Origin: Nannochloropsis salina CCMP1776
Taxonomy: Eukaryota; Sar; Eustigmatophyceae; Eustigmatales; Monodopsidaceae
NCBI GenBank assembly: GCA_004565275.1
Contig: SDOX01000028.1
Coordinates: 3,978-26,586, forward strand
Length of the DNA stretch: 22,609 nucleotides
Reading direction: 5' to 3'
The notes under the pieces: model-generated
Told to the model about the DNA's origin: nothing
What the model saw: the letters and a program-made list of their open reading frames with translations, nothing else
The model's database searches: none
Program-made: the position numbers and the translations under genes
Shown here: piece after piece, positions 10,801 to 22,609 of the stretch
How the letters are laid out: each line of letters begins with the position of its first letter
How positions within the stretch are numbered: position 1 is the stretch's first letter

Positions 10801-11440
10801 TGATGCCCTTTGAAATCATGTTTCACTGCTTTTGTTGTACCATGTCGAAGCCGACTAAGACCTTTCTTCACCTGACACATCACAACACAGGCTCATATCC
10901 TCCTGCCCAGTCATTATGTTGAAGGATGTAGGCAACTTGTGATGCCCGAAATGACGTGCGACCAGCTTTGATGGACCGTCGACCTAATCGCCTTGAGATC
11001 ATGAGGAGGAACGAATAAGAGGGAAAGATAGAATCTCGCGAAGGGAAGGATCAAGAAGATATAGTAAAATGAATGTCTTTCAAAAAAGCCTACGTTACTC
11101 TATATTGTCAGGATTTACTTTTGGCTGCTAAGAAAGAAGTAGATGTAGTTGTGCAGTAAGTACAGCGTGCGGGGTTTAAAACAGAGCTGCTTCCACACAT
11201 CAACTATTTCAATAAAAACCTTTTATTGCGCAAAGAAGTCTCACGTTATAAGAATACTAGATCATTGGCTTTACTTCAATCTCATTGTGCTCATGATTGT
11301 ATTGACAAATATGGCATAGGAAAGATCGCTCGACTGGCCATACAAATGCTGATTCATTCTTTTTTTCAAAACCCAACTGTATCCAACGGTTGTAACGGGT
11401 AGGCCGTTAAATTCGGCTAGCTGTCAGGGTATTAACTCGC
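10801..11440 (+). repeat. Upstream repeat copy belonging to lipoxygenase gene 1
   Basis: Blocks in order: TTTCACTGCT...GTCGAAGCCGA (about 10820-10856, matches 14240-14275), TGATGGACCGTCGAC (about 10969, matches 14527), TACAGCGTGCGGGGTTTA (11161, matches 14728) and the CCAACGGTTGTAACGG block (11383, matches 14939). Order and spacing are kept between the two genes while identity is well below that of the coding block. Confidence 0.65.
11383..11430 (+). promoter_or_regulatory. Conserved upstream block with MYB-like cores, gene 1
   Basis: CCAACGGTTGTAACGG is identical before both lipoxygenase genes and is followed by a GCCGTT...AATTCGG...TAGCT block. CAACGG and TAACGG fit the general MYB core YAACKG, and GCCGTTA carries it on the other strand. 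It lies about 260 bp before the start codon. A regulatory role is inferred from conservation within otherwise diverged flanks. Confidence 0.45.
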
Positions 11441-11645
11441 CTGTCATATCTTGCCCAGTATACAGCTAACACAGCAGATCGCTCTTTGTGATCAAATTAA
11501 TCGTCTATCATGTTCAGAAACCAGTTAAGCACTGCTCTTTGCTTGCATGCACTCAATCCAGACGAGACTTACTGCTCTGGTCTCCATTCAACCCCGAGTC
11601 AGCTCACAAAACGGTCTTTCAACGCTCTCTTACGGCCGACAGATC

Positions 11646-13622
11646 ATGCGCGTGGCTCATTGCATTCTGATACTGCTCTCAGTGACAAGGCAGCTGACTT
11701 CTGCCAAATACTCTTCTCACCTGAATGAAGAGGTTTCGAACTCGGGGCAAAGCCAGACGACCCGAACGCTTTTCCAAGATGAAGAAAAGAAAGGCTTTCT
11801 TTCAATTCCTCAGGACGATCCTGACCCGGCAAGCCGTGCTCGCCGCCTGAGCTATCGAGCGCCCTTCTGGGAGTTTGTGCCCTATGCTTCCATAGATCCT
11901 GACTTGGCCAATCTGACAATGGCAGCTCCCGGAGGCACTTTGGGAGAAGCTTCTCTCGATTCACAAAGCGCTGCAATCGGAGGCCAGCTTATGGTCTCCA
12001 GAGCGGTCGGGATGAATGTCTTAGAAGGTCCCATCATTGCGACGTGCCTGGCCATAAGCGCGTCGGGTGAGTGCCTGAATACTCTCGATAGCTATTTGCC
12101 TCTCTACGATTCCCTTGCCCCCCAATATCAGCCTGCGGCATACAAGTTCTACGACTCCGACTATGCTTTCGCCCGGGAGCGCATCACATCCTCCCCTGCA
12201 TTTATCACGCGCGTAAACAGCGTGGGTGACATTCCTTTCACGCAAGCAGACGTAACGGGCTATGACACCATCACCGGTGGCGTACCCTTATCCAGTCTGG
12301 TCGCGCAAGGGCGTCTCTTCACCGTCGACTACTATCCGTTGTACCAAGCAGGGGTTCTTGAGGCCTCTCCGAATGCTTTCTTGGAGGCCCCGACGGCCTT
12401 CTTCTTCGTGAACGGGCCCATCCCGAAAAGGCGCAAGTGGGGCAAGGCTAGGAAGAATGACCCGGCCCTGATGCCGCTGGCGATCAAGTACAACGTCCAG
12501 CAGACATATGTAGTATCTCCGCAAGACCCCCACCCCGACTGGTTCCTGGCCAAGGCAGTGTTCAATTGCCTCGATCGGGATGTAAACGCCATTTATCATT
12601 TTGTCTTGCACACGGTCATTGCCAACGTGGCGATTGCGGCGCAGAAGACACTGGCCAGCGAGCACCCGCTTTATCCGCCGATTCAACACGCAGCCAACCT
12701 TAATTTCGGGATCATTGCTTCTGGTGTGCTGTTGTTGCTGGCGCCGTCTGGCGTTTTCGACACTTATCTTTCTCTGAGTGGGGCCTCCATCCAAAGCTTG
12801 TTGTTCCCCTATCTCATGGAGCGTTTTGACTGGCAATCCACAAACATCAAGGATAATCTCCAAGCACGTGGTGTCATGGACATCCCGGGCTTCTTGTATC
12901 GCGATGATGGGGAGATCACCTATGATGCTTTGCGCACCTACACCAGGAAGTACCTGGCGGGTTCGTACAGGAAGCGCGGGTCTGTGCAGGGTGATCCGGA
13001 GCTGCAGAATTTCCTCGGTGCTCTCACTAACTCGTCCGACACGATCGCCTTCCTGAACGGCTTCCCTACTGGAGCTGAAGTGAGGAATCTGAAGGACGTG
13101 AGCGAGCTTCTTGCCCAGATCTTGTGGATCTCAGGGGTCGAGCATCACGCACTCAACTCCTTCCGCATCTTGAACTTCGACTTGGTCTATCCGTCCCATC
13201 CGGGAAAGATCCTGTCCCCTCTGCCCGCTAGCACGGGCACACTGACAGATGATCAGGTGCAGCAAAACTTCATATCGGGATCCGGCTTGTCGGGATCCAG
13301 CTTGTCGACCGCGCAGGCAGCGTCCACCGCTAATTTCGTGCCTGACTTCACGACAATGGACATTGGGAACCCCCTGGCTTTCTTCCTCGGCACGCAAGCT
13401 ACTGCATTCGCGTTTTATCCTCTGCTGCAGAAGCCCAACCGGCTGACTAACATTTATTTGTCAGACACAGAAGACAAACCTACTGCGAAGGCAGCTCTTG
13501 CCCTTCGTCAGAGACTCCGGGTCATCAGCAAGCGGATCGTGGAGCGTGAGGCTGCCACTACTGGCACATTCAAATACCTCCTACTCGATCCCACAAATCT
13601 GCCCTTCTATCTCTATATCTAA
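11646..13622 (+). CDS. Secreted lipoxygenase-family protein, copy 1
   Basis: 658 residues, no introns. Lipoxygenases add dioxygen to polyunsaturated fatty acids. The frame is open back to 11547, but the start at 11646 is preferred: it matches copy 2 and begins a signal peptide (MRVAHCILILLSVTRQLTSA). No N-terminal PLAT domain is visible. The catalytic domain shows RLFTVDYYPLY (223-233), PLAIKYNV (277-284), WFLAKAVFNCLDRDV (299-313), ASEHPLYPPI (337-346), RDDGEITYDALRTYTRKYL (419-437), LWISGVEHHALN (493-504) and a C-terminal Ile (658). In soybean LOX-1 numbering, His690, Asn694 and Ile839 correspond to His500, Asn504 and Ile658. The usual helix with His499/His504 instead reads DVNAIYHFVLH (312-322). 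Copy 1 differs from copy 2 in three short patches only. Catalysis is uncertain. Confidence 0.9.
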   Translation: MRVAHCILILLSVTRQLTSAKYSSHLNEEVSNSGQSQTTRTLFQDEEKKGFLSIPQDDPDPASRARRLSYRAPFWEFVPYASIDPDLANLTMAAPGGTLGEASLDSQSAAIGGQLMVSRAVGMNVLEGPIIATCLAISASGECLNTLDSYLPLYDSLAPQYQPAAYKFYDSDYAFARERITSSPAFITRVNSVGDIPFTQADVTGYDTITGGVPLSSLVAQGRLFTVDYYPLYQAGVLEASPNAFLEAPTAFFFVNGPIPKRRKWGKARKNDPALMPLAIKYNVQQTYVVSPQDPHPDWFLAKAVFNCLDRDVNAIYHFVLHTVIANVAIAAQKTLASEHPLYPPIQHAANLNFGIIASGVLLLLAPSGVFDTYLSLSGASIQSLLFPYLMERFDWQSTNIKDNLQARGVMDIPGFLYRDDGEITYDALRTYTRKYLAGSYRKRGSVQGDPELQNFLGALTNSSDTIAFLNGFPTGAEVRNLKDVSELLAQILWISGVEHHALNSFRILNFDLVYPSHPGKILSPLPASTGTLTDDQVQQNFISGSGLSGSSLSTAQAASTANFVPDFTTMDIGNPLAFFLGTQATAFAFYPLLQKPNRLTNIYLSDTEDKPTAKAALALRQRLRVISKRIVEREAATTGTFKYLLLDPTNLPFYLYI

Positions 13623-13906
13623 ACTGGCTTGAGGCAGTCGATTCACGCGGCTCGAGCAATATGTGTTGAGATTTCTCCATGGTGCACCTCTAGGAAAATA
13701 TTATGTTTAAGGCACTCGTCTAGCTAGCTATCTTCAGACCCGGCGAGGCCCCGCCAGCGTCCTCACTTCCTTCACTACCCCTTACGGCATTAATGTAGCA
13801 CATCCAATAGGCCTGGCGTACCTTCATTCTAGTGATCCACACAACGTAATGACGCTTCTGGCAGGCCATGCTTTTCACTCTCAAAATATAGATCGGGCTA
13901 CGATTA
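13623..13906 (+). other. Shared 3' flank of lipoxygenase gene 1
   Basis: Identical to 17190-17473. Probably the 3' untranslated region and terminator region; no canonical polyadenylation signal was fixed. Confidence 0.6.
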
Positions 13907-14284
13907 GACACGTCTACTCATTCTGTGAATTGTACCTCTCTTATATCCACTCGTTGATTGCTGTCGCGCGATATTATGCCGTGCCGACCTAAGTATAGTA
14001 AAAAATCATCCTATCAGTTGTTTTCTCCCTTGCAAAGTACTCCTCTAGACAATCCAAGAGATGATCGATATCTATGACTACGATGTGCGAATAAACATCG
14101 AACCCGAACTGATGCTAACTTCTCTCCTCGTCAAGCGTTTGCACATACATTGCGTAAACTTCTATGTCTATCTTTTTTACTCCCCATTGCCTTAGCTGCT
14201 GTCATATTATTTCACCTTTGGAAACACTATGAAGTACTTGTTTCACTGCTGTTCTTGTTCCAGGTCGAAGCCGATCATATCCTG

Positions 14285-14428
14285 TTTTTCCTTTGCCATG
14301 CTTGTTGACACAACCACGATTACCAACAGCTAGGGTATAGCCAAATGCCTGGTAGTTGAATGAAATGAGGCTTCTCAGCGCAAAGAAAAGTTTCTAAAAG
14401 AATTGTTAATGTTTGCAAGCGGCTGCGT
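14285..14428 (+). repeat. Inverted repeat, left arm (144 bp)
   Basis: Reverse complement of 14747-14890 with about eight mismatches and no gaps by eye. The arms are separated by 318 bp. The right arm belongs to the direct repeat series before the lipoxygenase genes, so this left arm is a secondary inverted copy. Confidence 0.9.
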
Positions 14429-14746
14429 GCATAGTACGTCTAGACATAGGCCCATATCATTCAACTTAGTATTGGTTCGGAACGTTACGTTTTTTCCCAT
14501 TCCAGAATGACAAGTGGACCAGTTCTGATGGACGGTCGACGTAATCAATTTGCTCGTATGAGGAGGAACAATAACGAGGGAAACAAAGGAATCTCGCGTC
14601 ATCAAAGAAAGGATGAAGAAGAATCTCATTACTCTGGTAGTTAATTATTCAAAGAAAGTCTCAATCACGTTAATTTATCAGAGTTTGTGTTCCCTTGCCA
14701 TAAAAATGGTACCTGTAGATGCGTGGTACAGCGTGCGAGGTTTACA

Positions 14747-14890
14747 ACGCAGCCGCTTGCAAACGTAAACAATTCTTTTTAAAACTTTTCTTTGCGCTGA
14801 GAAGCCTCATTTCATTCAACTACCAGGCATTTGGCTATACCCTAGCTGTTGGTACTCGTGGTTTTGTTAACAATCATGGCAAAGGAAAAA
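14747..14890 (-). repeat. Inverted repeat, right arm (144 bp)
   Basis: Pairs with 14285-14428. It lies about 325 bp before the start codon of lipoxygenase gene 2, so a long foldback could form upstream of that gene only. Confidence 0.9.
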
Positions 14891-14938
14891 TCGGTCGACT
14901 GGCCTAAATGCTGATTCGATCTTTCTTCCCAACTGCAC

Positions 14939-14987
14939 CCAACGGTTGTAACGGTTCAGCCGTTTAATTCGGTTAGCTTTCAGCACC
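14939..14987 (+). promoter_or_regulatory. Conserved upstream block with MYB-like cores, gene 2
   Basis: Same CCAACGGTTGTAACGG plus GCCGTTTAATTCGGTTAGCT arrangement as at 11383, about 270 bp before the start codon. The role is inferred from conservation. Confidence 0.45.
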
Positions 14988-15212
14988 GCATAAAGCCGTC
15001 TGTCAGATCTTGCTCCATATGCAGGGCCTTACGCGAATGCCTCTCTCTCTGTACAACTTTATCGCCATTTCTATTTAGAAGTCAATCATATACTGCTGTG
15101 ATGTACACATACATTCAAACAACGGACGAGACTTACTGCCCTACTGTTCATTCATCCTTGAGACTTCTCCCATAACGTTTCTCTCTCAGGCTATACTCCG
15201 ACCAGCAAGATC

Positions 15213-17189
15213 ATGCGCGTGGCTCATTGCATTCTGATACTGCTCTCAGTGACAAGGCAGCTGACTTCTGCCAAATATTCTTCTCACCTGAATGAAGAGG
15301 TTTCGAACTCGGGGCAAAGCCAGACGACCCGAACGCTTTTCCAAGATGAAGAAAAGAAAGGCTTCCTTTCAATTCCTCAGGACGATCCTGACCCGGCAAG
15401 CCGTGCTCGCCGCCTGAGCTATCGAGCGCCCTTCTGGGAGTTTGTGCCCTATGCTTCCATAGATCCTGGCTTGGCCAATCTGACAATGGCAGCTCCGGGA
15501 GGCACTTTGGGTGACGCCTCCCTCGCTTCACAAAGCGCTGCAATCGGAGGCCAGCTGTTGGTCTCTGAGGAAGTCGGGAAAGAGGTTCTAGAGGGTCCCA
15601 TCAGTGCGACGTGCCTGGCCATAAGCGCGTCGGGTGAGTGCCTGAATACTCTCGATAGCTATTTGCCTCTCTACGATTCCCTTGCCCCCCAATATCAGCC
15701 TGCGGCATACAAGTTCTACGATTCCGACTATGCTTTCGCCCGGGAGCGCATCACATCCTCCCCTGCATTTATCACGCGCGTAAACAGCGTGGGTGACATT
15801 CCTTTCACGCAAGCAGACGTAACGGGCTATGACACCATCACCGGTGGCGTACCCTTATCCAGTCTGGTCGCGCAAGGGCGTCTCTTCACCGTCGACTACT
15901 ATCCGTTGTACCAAGCAGGGGTTCTTGAGGCCTCTCCGAATGCTTTCTTGGAGGCCCCGACGGCCTTCTTCTTCGTGAACGGGCCCATCCCGAAAAGGCG
16001 CAAGTGGGGCAAGGCTAGGAAGAATGACCCGGCCCTGATGCCGCTGGCGATCAAGTACAACGTCCAGCAGACATATGTAGTATCTCCGCAAGACCCCCAC
16101 CCCGACTGGTTCCTGGCCAAGGCAGTGTTCAATTGCCTCGATCGGGATGTAAACGCCATTTATCATTTTGTCTTGCACACGGTCATTGCCAACGTGGCGA
16201 TTGCGGCGCAGAAGACACTGGCCAGCGAGCACCCGCTTTATCCGCCGATTCAACACGCAGCCAACCTTAATTTCGGGATCATTGCTGAGGGTGTACTATT
16301 ATTGCTGCAGCCATTTGGAGCCTTCGACACTTATCTTTCTCTGAGTGGGGCCTCCATCCAAAGCTTGTTGTTCCCCTATCTCATGGAGCGTTTTGACTGG
16401 CAATCCACAAACATCAAGGATAATCTCCAAGCACGCGGTGTCATGGACATCCCGGGCTTCTTGTATCGCGATGATGGGGAGATCACCTATGATGCTTTGC
16501 GCACCTACACCAGGAAGTACCTGGCGGGTTCGTACAGGAAGCGCGGGTCTGTGCAGGGTGATCCGGAGCTGCAGAATTTCCTCGGTGCTCTTACCAACTC
16601 GTCCGACACGATCGCCTTCCTGAACGGGTTCCCTACTGGAGCTGAAGTGAGGAATCTGAAGGACGTGAGCGAGCTTCTTGCCCAGATCTTGTGGATCTCA
16701 GGGGTCGAGCATCACGCACTCAACTCCTTCCGCATCTTGAACTTCGACTTGGTCTATCCGTCCCATCCGGGAAAGATCCTGTCCCCTCTGCCCGCTAGCA
16801 CGGGCACACTGACAGATGATCAGGTGCAGCAAAACTTCATATCGGGATCTGGCTTGTCGGGATCTAGCTTGTCGACCGCGCAGGCAGCGTCCACCGCTAA
16901 TTTCGTGCCTGACTTCACGACAATGGACATTGGGAACCCCCTGGCTTTCTTCCTCGGCACGCAGGCCCTTGCATTCGAATTCTATCCTCTGCTGCAGAAG
17001 CCCAACCGGCTGACTAACATTTATTTGTCAGACACAGAAGACAAACCTACTGCGAAGGCAGCCCTTGCCCTTCGTCAGAGACTCCGGGTCATCAGCAAGC
17101 GGATCGTGGAGCGTGAGGCTGCCACTACTGGCACATTCAAATACCTCCTACTCGATCCCACAAATCTGCCCTTCTATCTCTATATCTAA
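15213..17189 (+). CDS. Secreted lipoxygenase-family protein, copy 2
   Basis: 658 residues, intronless, with the same signal peptide and lipoxygenase domain as copy 1. It keeps the same altered first metal helix (Asp312 and Tyr317 where iron-ligand His are expected; His318 and His322 nearby) and the same His500/Asn504/Ile658. Protein differences from copy 1 fall in three clusters. Residues 86-131: D86G, E101D, D105A, M116L, R119E, A120E, M123K, N124E, I131S. Residues 359-370: S359E, A366Q, S368F, V370A. Residues 586 and 589: T586L, A589E. The second cluster follows Ala358, which aligns near the stereocontrol (Coffa) Ala of plant enzymes. The upstream region is diverged from that of copy 1, so expression may differ. 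Confidence 0.9.
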   Translation: MRVAHCILILLSVTRQLTSAKYSSHLNEEVSNSGQSQTTRTLFQDEEKKGFLSIPQDDPDPASRARRLSYRAPFWEFVPYASIDPGLANLTMAAPGGTLGDASLASQSAAIGGQLLVSEEVGKEVLEGPISATCLAISASGECLNTLDSYLPLYDSLAPQYQPAAYKFYDSDYAFARERITSSPAFITRVNSVGDIPFTQADVTGYDTITGGVPLSSLVAQGRLFTVDYYPLYQAGVLEASPNAFLEAPTAFFFVNGPIPKRRKWGKARKNDPALMPLAIKYNVQQTYVVSPQDPHPDWFLAKAVFNCLDRDVNAIYHFVLHTVIANVAIAAQKTLASEHPLYPPIQHAANLNFGIIAEGVLLLLQPFGAFDTYLSLSGASIQSLLFPYLMERFDWQSTNIKDNLQARGVMDIPGFLYRDDGEITYDALRTYTRKYLAGSYRKRGSVQGDPELQNFLGALTNSSDTIAFLNGFPTGAEVRNLKDVSELLAQILWISGVEHHALNSFRILNFDLVYPSHPGKILSPLPASTGTLTDDQVQQNFISGSGLSGSSLSTAQAASTANFVPDFTTMDIGNPLAFFLGTQALAFEFYPLLQKPNRLTNIYLSDTEDKPTAKAALALRQRLRVISKRIVEREAATTGTFKYLLLDPTNLPFYLYI

Positions 17190-17473
17190 ACTGGCTTGAG
17201 GCAGTCGATTCACGCGGCTCGAGCAATATGTGTTGAGATTTCTCCATGGTGCACCTCTAGGAAAATATTATGTTTAAGGCACTCGTCTAGCTAGCTATCT
17301 TCAGACCCGGCGAGGCCCCGCCAGCGTCCTCACTTCCTTCACTACCCCTTACGGCATTAATGTAGCACATCCAATAGGCCTGGCGTACCTTCATTCTAGT
17401 GATCCACACAACGTAATGACGCTTCTGGCAGGCCATGCTTTTCACTCTCAAAATATAGATCGGGCTACGATTA
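17190..17473 (+). other. Shared 3' flank of lipoxygenase gene 2
   Basis: Identical to 13623-13906; sequence after 17473 is unique. Confidence 0.6.
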
Positions 17474-18600: not shown

Positions 18601-18691
18601 AAACTCTGGGTGACATTTTTATTCCATGCGGGGGAGAGTCGACCTGGGTGGGGTGGGAGGGACAGAAATGTGAAAAGGCACGAGCGGTCGG

Positions 18692-19090
18692 TCATTCTCC
18701 GCAGCCACCAACACGCACTTCCGTATCCTTAACGGGACTTTTCCCGTACCACGATTCTATCGGCCGTAGCGGCACGCGCGTCTTATCGTGCTTGATTGTT
18801 AGGACGATGTCCTCCCGGTCCTCCTTTGGCAGGGCCAGCGCCTTGTCCGCCGGCAGCTTTTCGACCGCCTCCCCCACCAGGCCTTGCAGAGCCCCAACAG
18901 AGCTGTCCGCCATCTGCTGCCAGGATTCCGCCAGCTCCGAGAGCGAGACCATAATTCGAAAGATAGAGTCGCGCCTGTCGTCGAGTTCCCCCCTCTTCAA
19001 AAGGTAAAGCCGCCTCCCATCGAGGTTGAAATGCGTGACCTCGTCGGGATTCTTCATTTCGTGGGGCAAAACCCACGGCGCCTCCATCAC
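18692..19090 (-). CDS. Unknown protein, copy A of a tandem pair
   Basis: 132-codon minus-strand frame: MMEAPWVLPHEMKNPDEVTH, RRLYLLKRGELDDRRDSIF, SLSELAESWQQMADSSVGA, EAVEKLPADKALALPKED, DKTRVPLRPIESWYGKSP. Copy B, 0.7 kb away, repeats it with many substitutions but the same layout, which argues that the frame is or was coding. Highly charged, soluble-looking, no signal peptide, no recognised domain. The 5' end may be spliced: in copy B the corresponding frame is preceded by an acceptor-like TTCATCAG. Confidence 0.45.
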   Translation of the reverse strand: MMEAPWVLPHEMKNPDEVTHFNLDGRRLYLLKRGELDDRRDSIFRIMVSLSELAESWQQMADSSVGALQGLVGEAVEKLPADKALALPKEDREDIVLTIKHDKTRVPLRPIESWYGKSPVKDTEVRVGGCGE

Positions 19091-19360
19091 CCTCCACAGC
19101 GCTTCCTATAGATGGAAGCTCCCATTCAAAGAGGCTCTTTCGGGGACCCGATGGACGGTAGTTTGAAAGAGACGGCAGAATCGTCAGGCAGTGAAATGGC
19201 GAAGGAGAGGACGCACATTTAACCCCGGTCCTGTGTTACCTTATGAGCGGATGCAGGTATTAACGACGTACCGAAGCCTCCTCTGAAGTATTTATTTTTC
19301 TTTACGCTTTCTTGTGAGATTAAGAGATTAATTGCCAACCTATGCCTCCTCAGACGAATG
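18697..19360 (-). repeat. Tandem duplication, copy A
   Basis: Aligns with 19405-20085 in direct orientation at very roughly 80% identity by eye with small indels. Covers the unknown frame and about 250 bp upstream of it on the minus strand. Confidence 0.75.
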
Positions 19361-19873
19361 TAGGCTATCGTGTGCTTCGAACACCAGCCTGTCCGAACGC
19401 GACGATCCTATCGGTCCTTTTCTATAGCCATCAACACGCACTTCCGTATCCTTAGTGGGACTTTTCATTTTCCATGACTCTATCGGTCGTAGCGGCACGC
19501 GTGTCTTGTCGCACTTGACTGTTACGACTTCCTTCTCGCGGCCCTTCCCCTCCGGCAGAACCAGCGCCTTGTCCGCAAGCATCTTCTCGACCGCCTACCC
19601 CACCAGGCCTTGCAGAGCCCTAAGAGAGCTGTCCGCCATCCACTGCCAGAGTTCCGCCAGCTCCGAGAGCGAGATCATTGTTCGAAGGATAAAGCCGCGC
19701 CTGTGGCCGAGGGTCCCCCTCTTCAAAAGGTAAAGCCGTCTCCAATTGCGGGTGAAGGGCGTGACCTCGTTGGGATTCTTGACTTCGAGGGGTAACACCC
19801 ACGGTGCCTCCGCCACCCTCCAGGGCGCTTCCTGAAGATGGGAGTACCTCTTGAAGGGGGCTGTCTCGGGCAC
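19340..19873 (-). pseudogene. Unknown protein, copy B of the tandem pair, interrupted
   Basis: Minus-strand frame: PETAPFKRYSHLQEAPWRV, EAPWVLPLEVKNPNEVT, RRLYLLKRGTLGHRRGF, SLSELAELWQWMADSSLRA, then a stop where copy A has a Glu codon, then AVEKMLADKALVLPEGKG and DKTRVPLRPIESWKMKSP in the same frame. The pattern is that of a gene copy inactivated by one nonsense change, or an exon boundary I do not recognise. No known domain. Confidence 0.45.
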
Positions 19874-20085
19874 CTGATGAACGGAGTTTGGAAGAGAGGA
19901 TGGAATCGTCAGGCAGTGTAGGGGCGAAGGAGAGGACGCACATGCGACCCAAGTGCTGTCTCAACTCACCAGCGGATGCAGGTACTGCACGACGTAGAAA
20001 AGGCCGGTCTAGTATTTTCATTTTTTTGGGGCGCTCTATTGTGATATTAAGTGCCAAACTATGCCTCCTCTGACGAACGGACGAC
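19405..20085 (-). repeat. Tandem duplication, copy B
   Basis: Second copy of 18697-19360. Both end near the conserved plus-strand words ATGCCTCCTC and GACGAA. Confidence 0.75.
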
Positions 20086-20899: not shown

Positions 20900-22609
20900 A
20901 TGCCGTCCCTTTCCTTCAAACTGGGCTTGATTATCTTAACCGCGCTAGCTTTGCAAAAAGAGGCTCAAACCACAAGCGTTTCAGACGTGCAATCACTACA
21001 GGGCCTTTTTGATAAGCATGGGCTCCACAGCAGATTACAAGAATTCCAAATCTCCAGCGAAAAGCGCAGTAGAAAAAGCTTTGGAATCCGACGTGGCTCT
21101 TCTCCTCCTGACGGTTTTGCCAAGGCTGAGAAATTACTGGAGTACAGTGTGACGGCCTCTCAAGAAACCGCGCTGAATCGAACACGTAAGGATCGTTTCC
21201 TAGAGCGTGATTTGCTTCGAAAACCGCGAAAGCGAAGGTGGATCAGCAAGCGAAAGCTCAAGAAACAGCTTCAAGAGTGCGAAGCCCGTCTGCAAGAAAC
21301 TCAGGACAACTTGGACGCCCCGAGAAATCTCTTCGTTCAGATGGCGCAACATTGCACTTTAGAAAGGGCAGCGGGACGATACTACCTTCGCACCACAGAT
21401 ATGGACGCAGATACTTATGTTTTTACAGAGATGCCCTTACAGCAGGCAAACGTGTGGCCCACAAGCTATTTTGTCGGCTACCTTTTTGATGAGTTCTTCG
21501 CCGACGAGAAGCCCAACGCGGCCTTCACGTTCAATGTCTACAACAACCAGTCGGAGAAGACATTTGAAGGACCCCTTATTTCTGTCCTCCTTTCGTCGCA
21601 TCAATTCGTCTTGCAGGAGGACAACTCCACCCTTGTTGTCTATGAGCTTGCTCAGTCTTCGGAGCAGGAAGCGACCTCCCCGCTCTCGCGCTTTTTCCGA
21701 GGAACTGATCCCCTCGGTAATGCATCGGTCACGTACGAGCACTGCTCTCTTTTTATCGATCCCGTGTCAGGAGTCGATGGAGATAGCTTTTACAGCCCAG
21801 CAGAGTCCAGGGATGATACTGTGGACGCCCTTAATCGTGCAGCTGAATCGGTAGAAAAGGGTCCTGATCAGACCACTCCTGAGATGCAAACCTACACTAG
21901 AGTGTGGAGTTTTGAGCAACCAAAGCCCCTTGCCCCTAAAGACGTCTACAAGGGTGCTGGAGACGCTATGAAAGCTCTAGCAACTCTCATTCAGGAATGC
22001 AATGGGAAGGGCTGTGGTACAAAAGATATCGTGGAGGGTCTGTCTAATATGCTAATGCCGGTGGCCTACGCAATCGGAGCTGCTTTCCCCGCGGCGGATG
22101 CAGTAATCACTATTGTAGCATCTCTCGGGCTTCTCTTTTCTAGTCTTTTCTTTGATCCCCCAAGTCCCCAAGCTGGTGCCATTTCGCCTTCCCAGATTGA
22201 GGATGCTGTAAAGAAGGCCCTTGCAAGGTATGATGCTACAAAGGACAAGGACCTTATCAACCAATACTCAGTCTTCCTCAAAGTTGACCTCGACAACTTT
22301 GTGAGGAGGACTGGAAGCTTGGCATACATTCGAAATCAAAAGAAGGACGACTTTCAAGCCCAAATCGACCAACAGGTACGTGTATTCCTGTGTAAGGAAG
22401 CTTCCTCATGGAAATGTCTTTTTTCCATCCCGCTTCGCCATCGACACGATTCGACAGCGTCACATGCATCATTCGAGGAAATATGAAATGGAATCCGCTC
22501 TTTCTCCATACAATACCCCCGTCACATTCACCAGGTTGAGCATTGGAAAACAGACGCATTTACCGGAGCATGGAACGAATATCAGGGCGCTTTGGTTCCC
22601 ATACAAGCC
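20900..22609 (+). CDS. Secreted or membrane-associated protein of unknown family, cut by the right edge
   Basis: Exon 1 is 20900-22375 (492 codons). A donor CAACAG/GTACGTG and an acceptor ATTCGACAG define an 82-bp intron (22376-22457). Exon 2 continues in phase (RHMHHSRKYEMESALSPYN, PVTFTRLSIGKQTHLPEHG, NIRALWFPY) to the end of the window. Reading straight through the intron would give a stop at 22484-22486 and a tail without character. The N-terminus is a signal peptide (MPSLSFKLGLIILTALAL). Residues 93-140 are very basic and helical. Residues 157-290 look like a beta-rich domain (VWPTSYFVGYLFDEFF, FEGPLISVLLSSHQF, TLVVYELAQSSEQE). Residues 383-418 are strongly hydrophobic, enough for a membrane hairpin, followed by amphipathic helices (ISPSQIEDAVKKALARY). 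I do not recognise the family. Confidence 0.8.
22376..22457 (+). other. Intron of the right-edge gene
   Basis: 82 bp, GTACGT...CGACAG, phase 0 on both sides. Unlike the introns of the left half it has no GGGA/TCCC repeat. Confidence 0.75.

Follow-up and report, generated by a model that had tools for sequence, protein, structure and literature searches.

The stretch of DNA analysed here, 22,609 nucleotides of the Nannochloropsis salina CCMP1776 genome and referred to below as the window, carries two lipoxygenase genes in tandem (W1 and W2), the coordinates of which are collected in Table 1 with those of the other features discussed. The genes lie in a near-identical block that recurs at an offset of +3567 (11641-13906 and 15208-17473) with no indels. 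The near-identity begins 5 bp upstream of the start codon and extends through the 3' flanks, beyond which the 1200 bp compared downstream give no further match between the two copies. The reading frame of W1 is open from 11547, and the start codon common to both genes is at 11646 in W1 and 15213 in W2; the N-terminus of W1 has a hydrophobic stretch which, judged by eye, resembles a signal peptide. Between W1 and W2, overlapping the 5' flank of the latter, there is an inverted repeat (14285-14890) consisting of two 144-bp arms that are 94% complementary and 318 bp apart; a DNA search of the same genome with this region matches the window's contig alone.

Table 1. Features of the window pair and of the second lipoxygenase pair; positions are those of the window unless a contig (C37) is named.
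Feature	Position	Strand	Remarks
W1	11646..13622	+	lipoxygenase copy 1, 658 aa, single uninterrupted reading frame
W2	15213..17189	+	lipoxygenase copy 2, 658 aa; PF00305 E=5.5e-10; 98% identical to W1
W1 5' flank	10950..11613	+	68% match with indels to 14506-15177 (blastn); putative un-homogenised remnant that dates the duplication
W2 5' flank	14506..15177	+	diverged homolog of the W1 5' flank
W1 3' flank	13623..13906	+	284 bp, identical to 17190-17473; homology detectable to its end only
W2 3' flank	17190..17473	+	284 bp
Patch 1, W1	11902..12037	+	residues 86-131; 23 differences, 9 replacements (W1 to W2): D86G, E101D, D105A, M116L, R119E, A120E, M123K, N124E, I131S
Patch 1, W2	15469..15604	+	offset +3567
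Patch 2, W1	12720..12755	+	residues 359-370, spanning the unchanged G360; 13 differences, 4 replacements: S359E, A366Q, S368F, V370A
Patch 2, W2	16287..16322	+	offset +3567
Patch 3, W1	13397..13415	+	residues 584-590; 7 differences, 2 replacements: T586L, A589E
Patch 3, W2	16964..16982	+	offset +3567
Genes A/B (L004/L003)	C37 957684-959606 and 963002-964924		second pair, 5318 bp apart
Duplicated units of the second pair	C37 954975-959756 and 960293-965074		

Matches to PF00305 of 42.0 and 38.8 bits, against a curated cut-off of 23.6, place the proteins in the lipoxygenase family. The metal ligands of lipoxygenases are described as three histidines, a fourth residue that is histidine, asparagine or serine, and a C-terminal carboxylate that is usually provided by isoleucine (PMC13059375). 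Candidate ligands, namely H318, H322, H500/H501, N504 and the C-terminal I658, are common to all four copies considered below. They align with the HX3H motif of the fungal manganese lipoxygenase 5fx8 and with the HHxxN motif of both this enzyme and 5fno, which has HX4H; the two fungal enzymes are only 22% identical to the algal proteins over the fold. Manganese lipoxygenases are the closest solved sequences, a likeness from which the catalytic metal of the algal copies is not readable.

W1 and W2 differ at 53 positions, 43 of which are inside three short patches. The original prediction had described an indel-free block of 2266 bp with about ten synonymous differences outside the patches, 23, 13 and 7 differences within them, a mixture of silent and replacement changes that includes every protein difference, and identical 284-bp 3' flanks. 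Our recount gives exactly 10 differences elsewhere, all of them silent (11711, 11798, 12155, 12869, 13025, 13028, 13061, 13283, 13298 and 13496), and finds the same patch counts at the same borders; the 3' flanks agree on direct comparison, and all 15 of the 15 replacements fall within patches, with none outside. Five glutamates are found in W2 where W1 has another residue (119, 120, 124, 359 and 589), and one in W1 only (101). Silent differences occupy 22.0 of 51.7 sites in the patches vs 10.0 of 428.7 outside (Fisher p = 2e-16), which corresponds to a silent divergence of 0.63 vs 0.024, or about 26-fold. The longest run of W1/W2 identity at sites variable among the four copies is 158, and none of 10,000 shuffles matched it; chance is excluded as the source of the clustering. 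The differences within the patches resemble those of coding sequence under constraint: 22 of the 43 are silent, whereas the site counts predict 27% (p = 7e-4). In all four copies the patches have the lower four-fold GC3 (44-51% vs 65-66% outside), with p = 0.013 for W2, 0.057 for W1, 0.061 for A and 0.108 for B. As the shift is significant in W2 alone, a foreign composition of the patches is not used as an argument here; the lower GC3 is possibly a trace of GC-biased conversion outside them.

Upstream of the near-identical block, the 5' flanks of the window pair can be aligned over about 670 bp, with 468 of 689 columns identical (68%) and 42 gaps (blastn E=1e-50); when gaps are left out, 179 of 647 sites (28%) differ. 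Since these flanks are merely 68% alike, the duplication that gave rise to the window pair is old, and the unexpected part is therefore the likeness of the coding sequence outside the patches, which has 10 differences over 1779 sites (99.4% identity) and is followed by a 3' flank that is 100% identical. The silent divergence of the patches is slightly above that of the 5' flank (p = 0.04), the order of magnitude being alike. Low coding divergence in spite of an older duplication is the outcome that gene conversion between neighbours would be expected to yield, and we infer that conversion has been the homogenising process.

Protein and PF00305 searches of the same genome found four lipoxygenase genes, which is a lower bound: the window pair and a second tandem pair, A and B, on a 1.07-Mb contig. 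Protein identity between the pairs is about 70%. A and B are near-identical save for clusters of differences at the same three places as the patches of the window pair, with a wider patch 2 and a few differences elsewhere. The alignment has 639 columns; replacements occupy 15 of them in the window pair and 34 in the second pair, and the two sets share 7 (columns 118, 121, 125, 133, 361, 370 and 591). An overlap of 0.8 is expected (hypergeometric p = 3e-6), and rotation reaches 7 in 3 of 639 cases; when only the 213 columns that vary anywhere in the four copies are counted, p = 0.004. The patch columns of the window pair, which make up 35 of these 213, hold 16 of the 34 second-pair replacements (p = 3e-6). 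Tested for patch columns against the remainder, the second-pair replacements give p = 5e-9, their patch count being reached in 9 of 639 rotations. The longest identical run of the second pair (p = 0.016) is less extreme than that of the window pair. Over the 195 patch sites W1 and W2 differ at 43 and A and B at 21, with 94-95 differences between the pairs; because the copies are closer within than between pairs, the two patch patterns probably arose separately. A single polymorphism inherited across both pairs was considered and rejected, the patch states of W1 and W2 having no one-to-one match to those of A and B.

Over the 2709 sites of the 5' flank of the second pair (C37:954975-957683) there are 8 differences, which are confined to the outer 1.6 kb, a divergence that resembles the silent level of the gene far from replacements (2.0 differences over 367.7 sites). 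Given such near-identical flanks, the duplication of the second pair may be recent. Homogenisation there may also extend well upstream, unlike in the window pair. In a wider region of the contig (L007/L008, C37:954975-967429), the duplicated unit reaches into a neighbouring ORF on the opposite strand and includes its 5' end (L007:151-3093). The unit also has a 3' part of 428 bp that is 96.7% identical between copies; in the second copy this part is 1.9 kb further off, where it directly precedes a run of 1,922 N.

The silent changes of both pairs accompany the replacements. At a distance of up to three codons from a replacement, the window pair has 21.0 silent differences over 51.3 sites and the second pair 12.5 over 89.5 sites; beyond that distance the window pair has 11.0 over 429.0, and the second pair falls to the low level given above. 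A rotation test confined to wholly silent codons gives p = 0.009 for the window pair (16 of 27 near a replacement) and p = 0.005 for the second pair (6 of 8 near, with 8 codons only); with neighbourhoods of 5, 8 and 12 codons, p for both pairs climbs to 0.017-0.034. Selected point mutation by itself would leave silent differences evenly spread, whereas here they bunch near replacements, so that in both pairs the replaced residues lie within islands of older sequence. The patches thus have the look of remnants that homogenisation passed over, the silent excess of the second pair being weaker when the patch borders of the window pair are imposed (p = 0.06).

These observations are best accommodated, with a probability that we put at about three in four, by an old tandem pair in which conversion homogenises the copies and selection retains three islands. 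Conversion between the neighbours of each pair would keep overwriting most of the coding sequence, giving near-identical copies. Recombinants in which one of the three short segments is overwritten would lose a selected difference, so that these segments would resist conversion, and silent differences linked to them would survive as well. The selected property would likely be substrate or product specificity. The whole argument is drawn from four sequences in one genome; a query with the four proteins found no relative in prokaryotic and viral contig collections.

An alternative is a recent homogenisation, or duplication, of the window pair, after which conversion brought in the patches from a sister paralog since lost or missing from the assembly, or from a diverged strain. 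The sharp borders of the patches would suit such an import, the gaps and short contigs of the assembly could conceal a donor, and the patch distances are compatible with a donor that was sister to the window pair. Nevertheless, searches of the same genome with the proteins, with PF00305 and with patch-1 DNA found no donor in the assembly; patch-1 DNA with its flanks matches solely W1 and W2. The patches of W1 are at 94 and 94 of 195 sites from A and B, those of W2 at 95 and 94, and there are 12 derived changes in W1 vs 11 in W2. This equidistance from the second pair argues against a donor outside the window pair's own lineage, with a power limited by the saturation of silent sites between the pairs (pS about 0.8). 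In addition, import would need to have struck both pairs at the same three places, and the old 5' flank already supplies diverged copies with no need of a donor. We consider this alternative improbable, and a third paralog as donor was rejected as the main explanation, as the searches yielded the four genes alone. The original prediction had offered two mechanisms and had proposed a genome search for further paralogs. That search brought to light the second pair, in which the islands recur, and no donor; hence conversion that homogenised all but selected segments gains support from the old 5' flanks, the silent clustering and the second-pair islands, while the idea that a third, more diverged paralog contributed the tracts finds no support, given the missing donor and the equal distances of W1 and W2.

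It is very improbable that the islands arose with no recourse to conversion, from a young duplication after which point mutations gathered in clusters, through positive selection or through relaxed constraint at the pocket. The second pair gives this some encouragement. Its patch columns hold 17 replacements vs 4 silent changes (12 vs 1 in patch 1), with a dN of 0.128 above a dS of 0.083, and between the pairs the protein evolves about twice as fast in the patch regions (W1 vs A dN 0.48 vs 0.22). Point mutation by itself is largely refuted for the window pair by the 26-fold silent excess of the patches and by the diverged 5' flanks, and in both pairs silent changes cluster by the replacements. 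Positive selection acting through point mutation probably adds to the islands of the second pair. Least credible of all is an assembly artefact, in which the patches would come from a blend of alleles or from faulty polishing of the repeat copies: assembling near-identical tandem copies is difficult, and the window's contig has only 26,586 bases, the first 3,977 of which are N, but a separate pair on a much longer contig has islands at the same places, all four reading frames are open with patch changes enriched in silent ones as in real genes, and W1 and W2 are separated by sequence of which the assembly has no match on any other contig.

The islands are observed, whereas selection on them is inferred; the property that it would act on is suggested by where they would lie in the enzyme. 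A model of W1 was built with an alignment of 34 bacterial lipoxygenases and the four algal proteins; a model from the four-sequence alignment alone had a pLDDT of 29 and was set aside. The bacterial set comprised 39 sequences taken from 80 loci, 37 of the 39 having an open frame and 34 being aligned, among them one from a Tatlockia MAG and one from Tsukamurella; near-duplicates, partial matches and loci of Pseudomonas aeruginosa, Burkholderia, Nocardia and Corynebacterium were omitted. The model has a mean pLDDT of 79.7 and a pTM of 0.84, with 10-residue means of 60-84 at the patches. All 50 matches listed in each structure search are lipoxygenases, a result to be read in the knowledge that the alignment behind the model itself contained lipoxygenases.

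Patch 1 takes up a loop and the greater part of model helix 104-137, which aligns with the bacterial segment that starts FSxxY. It is probable from the model that this is helix alpha-2, the lid at the entrance of the pocket, a role that we take over from work on 5-lipoxygenase. Patch 2 comprises the end of model helix 353-365 and the following turn. In Cyanothece lipoxygenase 2, one alanine has been named as the Coffa-Brash determinant (PMC5437038). G360 aligns with this alanine, with I356 and L364 at neighbouring clamp positions, and all three are unchanged across the four copies; by alignment, G360 would be the glycine/alanine position that controls R or S stereochemistry. The residue directly before it varies in both pairs (S/E in the window pair, S/A in the second pair). 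The original prediction placed patch 2 beside a presumed active-site alanine, and the adjacency stands, in that S359E directly precedes the site, whereas the residue itself is glycine in all four copies. Patch 3 is within model helix 576-594, which should correspond to the C-terminal pocket helix, the counterpart of that bearing Leu502 and Leu506 in Cyanothece. These two are clamp residues of the Cyanothece enzyme, and exchange of Leu502 changed its products (PMC5437038). Two registers onto Leu502/Leu506 can be drawn: with L577/L581, the L/I difference of the second pair (column 579) is at the Leu502 equivalent, and with T586/F590 it is T586L that takes this position. An exact placement on Leu502/Leu506, or on Ala603 of 5-lipoxygenase, was abandoned, the profile alignment giving no decision, and the helix alone is claimed. 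Taken with the model, the three patches probably line the fatty-acid pocket, and a difference in specificity between W1 and W2 is plausible from their position.

If selection has indeed retained the islands, conversion would act as a natural filter that tends to erase whatever the difference between the enzymes does not need. The 15 residue differences of the window pair, and the 34 of the second pair, would then be candidate specificity determinants in a little-studied group of lipoxygenases, and two pairs keeping the same three regions would amount to a natural replicate. It is doubtful that the pocket walls are standing specificity cassettes, with a scaffold renewed by conversion and the same three segments, at partly the same codons, held or exchanged as alternative modules, independently in the two pairs and perhaps between strains, so as to give a small repertoire of different oxylipin-forming enzymes on one scaffold.

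By analogy, the finding would belong to a known kind, in which islands of divergence are kept by selection under gene conversion. Human RHCE and RHD encode blood-group proteins, as against an enzyme pocket here. A two-locus model of conversion with selection for these genes, cited in the review PMC3924837, is the likeness. The same review describes a peak of divergence under gene conversion in the red and green opsins. As is proposed for the window pair, the primate opsins (Teshima and Innan) are neighbours homogenised by conversion, with a divergence peak around functional residues; the opsin genes contain introns and the peak described is in exon 5, whereas the lipoxygenases have three separate islands in single-frame genes, in two pairs of one genome. 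Closer in being an enzyme gene pair with islands of divergence are GOT1p1 and GOT1p2 of Tigriopus californicus, reported to have highly divergent regions despite apparent on-going conversion (PMC3728101). That pair was followed across populations, while the lipoxygenase islands come from one genome, are repeated in a second pair and map to helices that probably belong to the pocket. Lipoxygenases of brown algae, also stramenopiles, have expanded by tandem duplication, under purifying selection and with no evidence of episodic positive selection (PMC5712309); the tandem expansion is shared, and gene conversion is absent from the main text of that paper. Among the titles and openings of abstracts listed, a range that takes in few subscription journals, we found no publication on conversion between algal lipoxygenases, nor one that combines Nannochloropsis, tandem duplication and gene conversion. 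To the known kind the lipoxygenases contribute an enzyme with three separate islands and, which is more unusual, a further pair in one genome that has the same islands at partly the same codons.

Two further features lie downstream of W2 in the window. The first is a direct repeat of about 590 bp (18688-19270 and 19411-19996), 80.7% identical with 11 gap openings. The second is an ORF of 528 aa on the forward strand (20900-22486), the N-terminus of which has a hydrophobic stretch; no Pfam family matches it at E 0.001. At the DNA level it has 15 more matches, spread over 12 other contigs and with identities of up to 97%; several of these are <3 kb from the start of their contig (C2, C75, C89 and C96). 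The ORF looks like one of a gene family that is dispersed and perhaps subtelomeric, and a position of the lipoxygenase pair near a chromosome end would agree with this.
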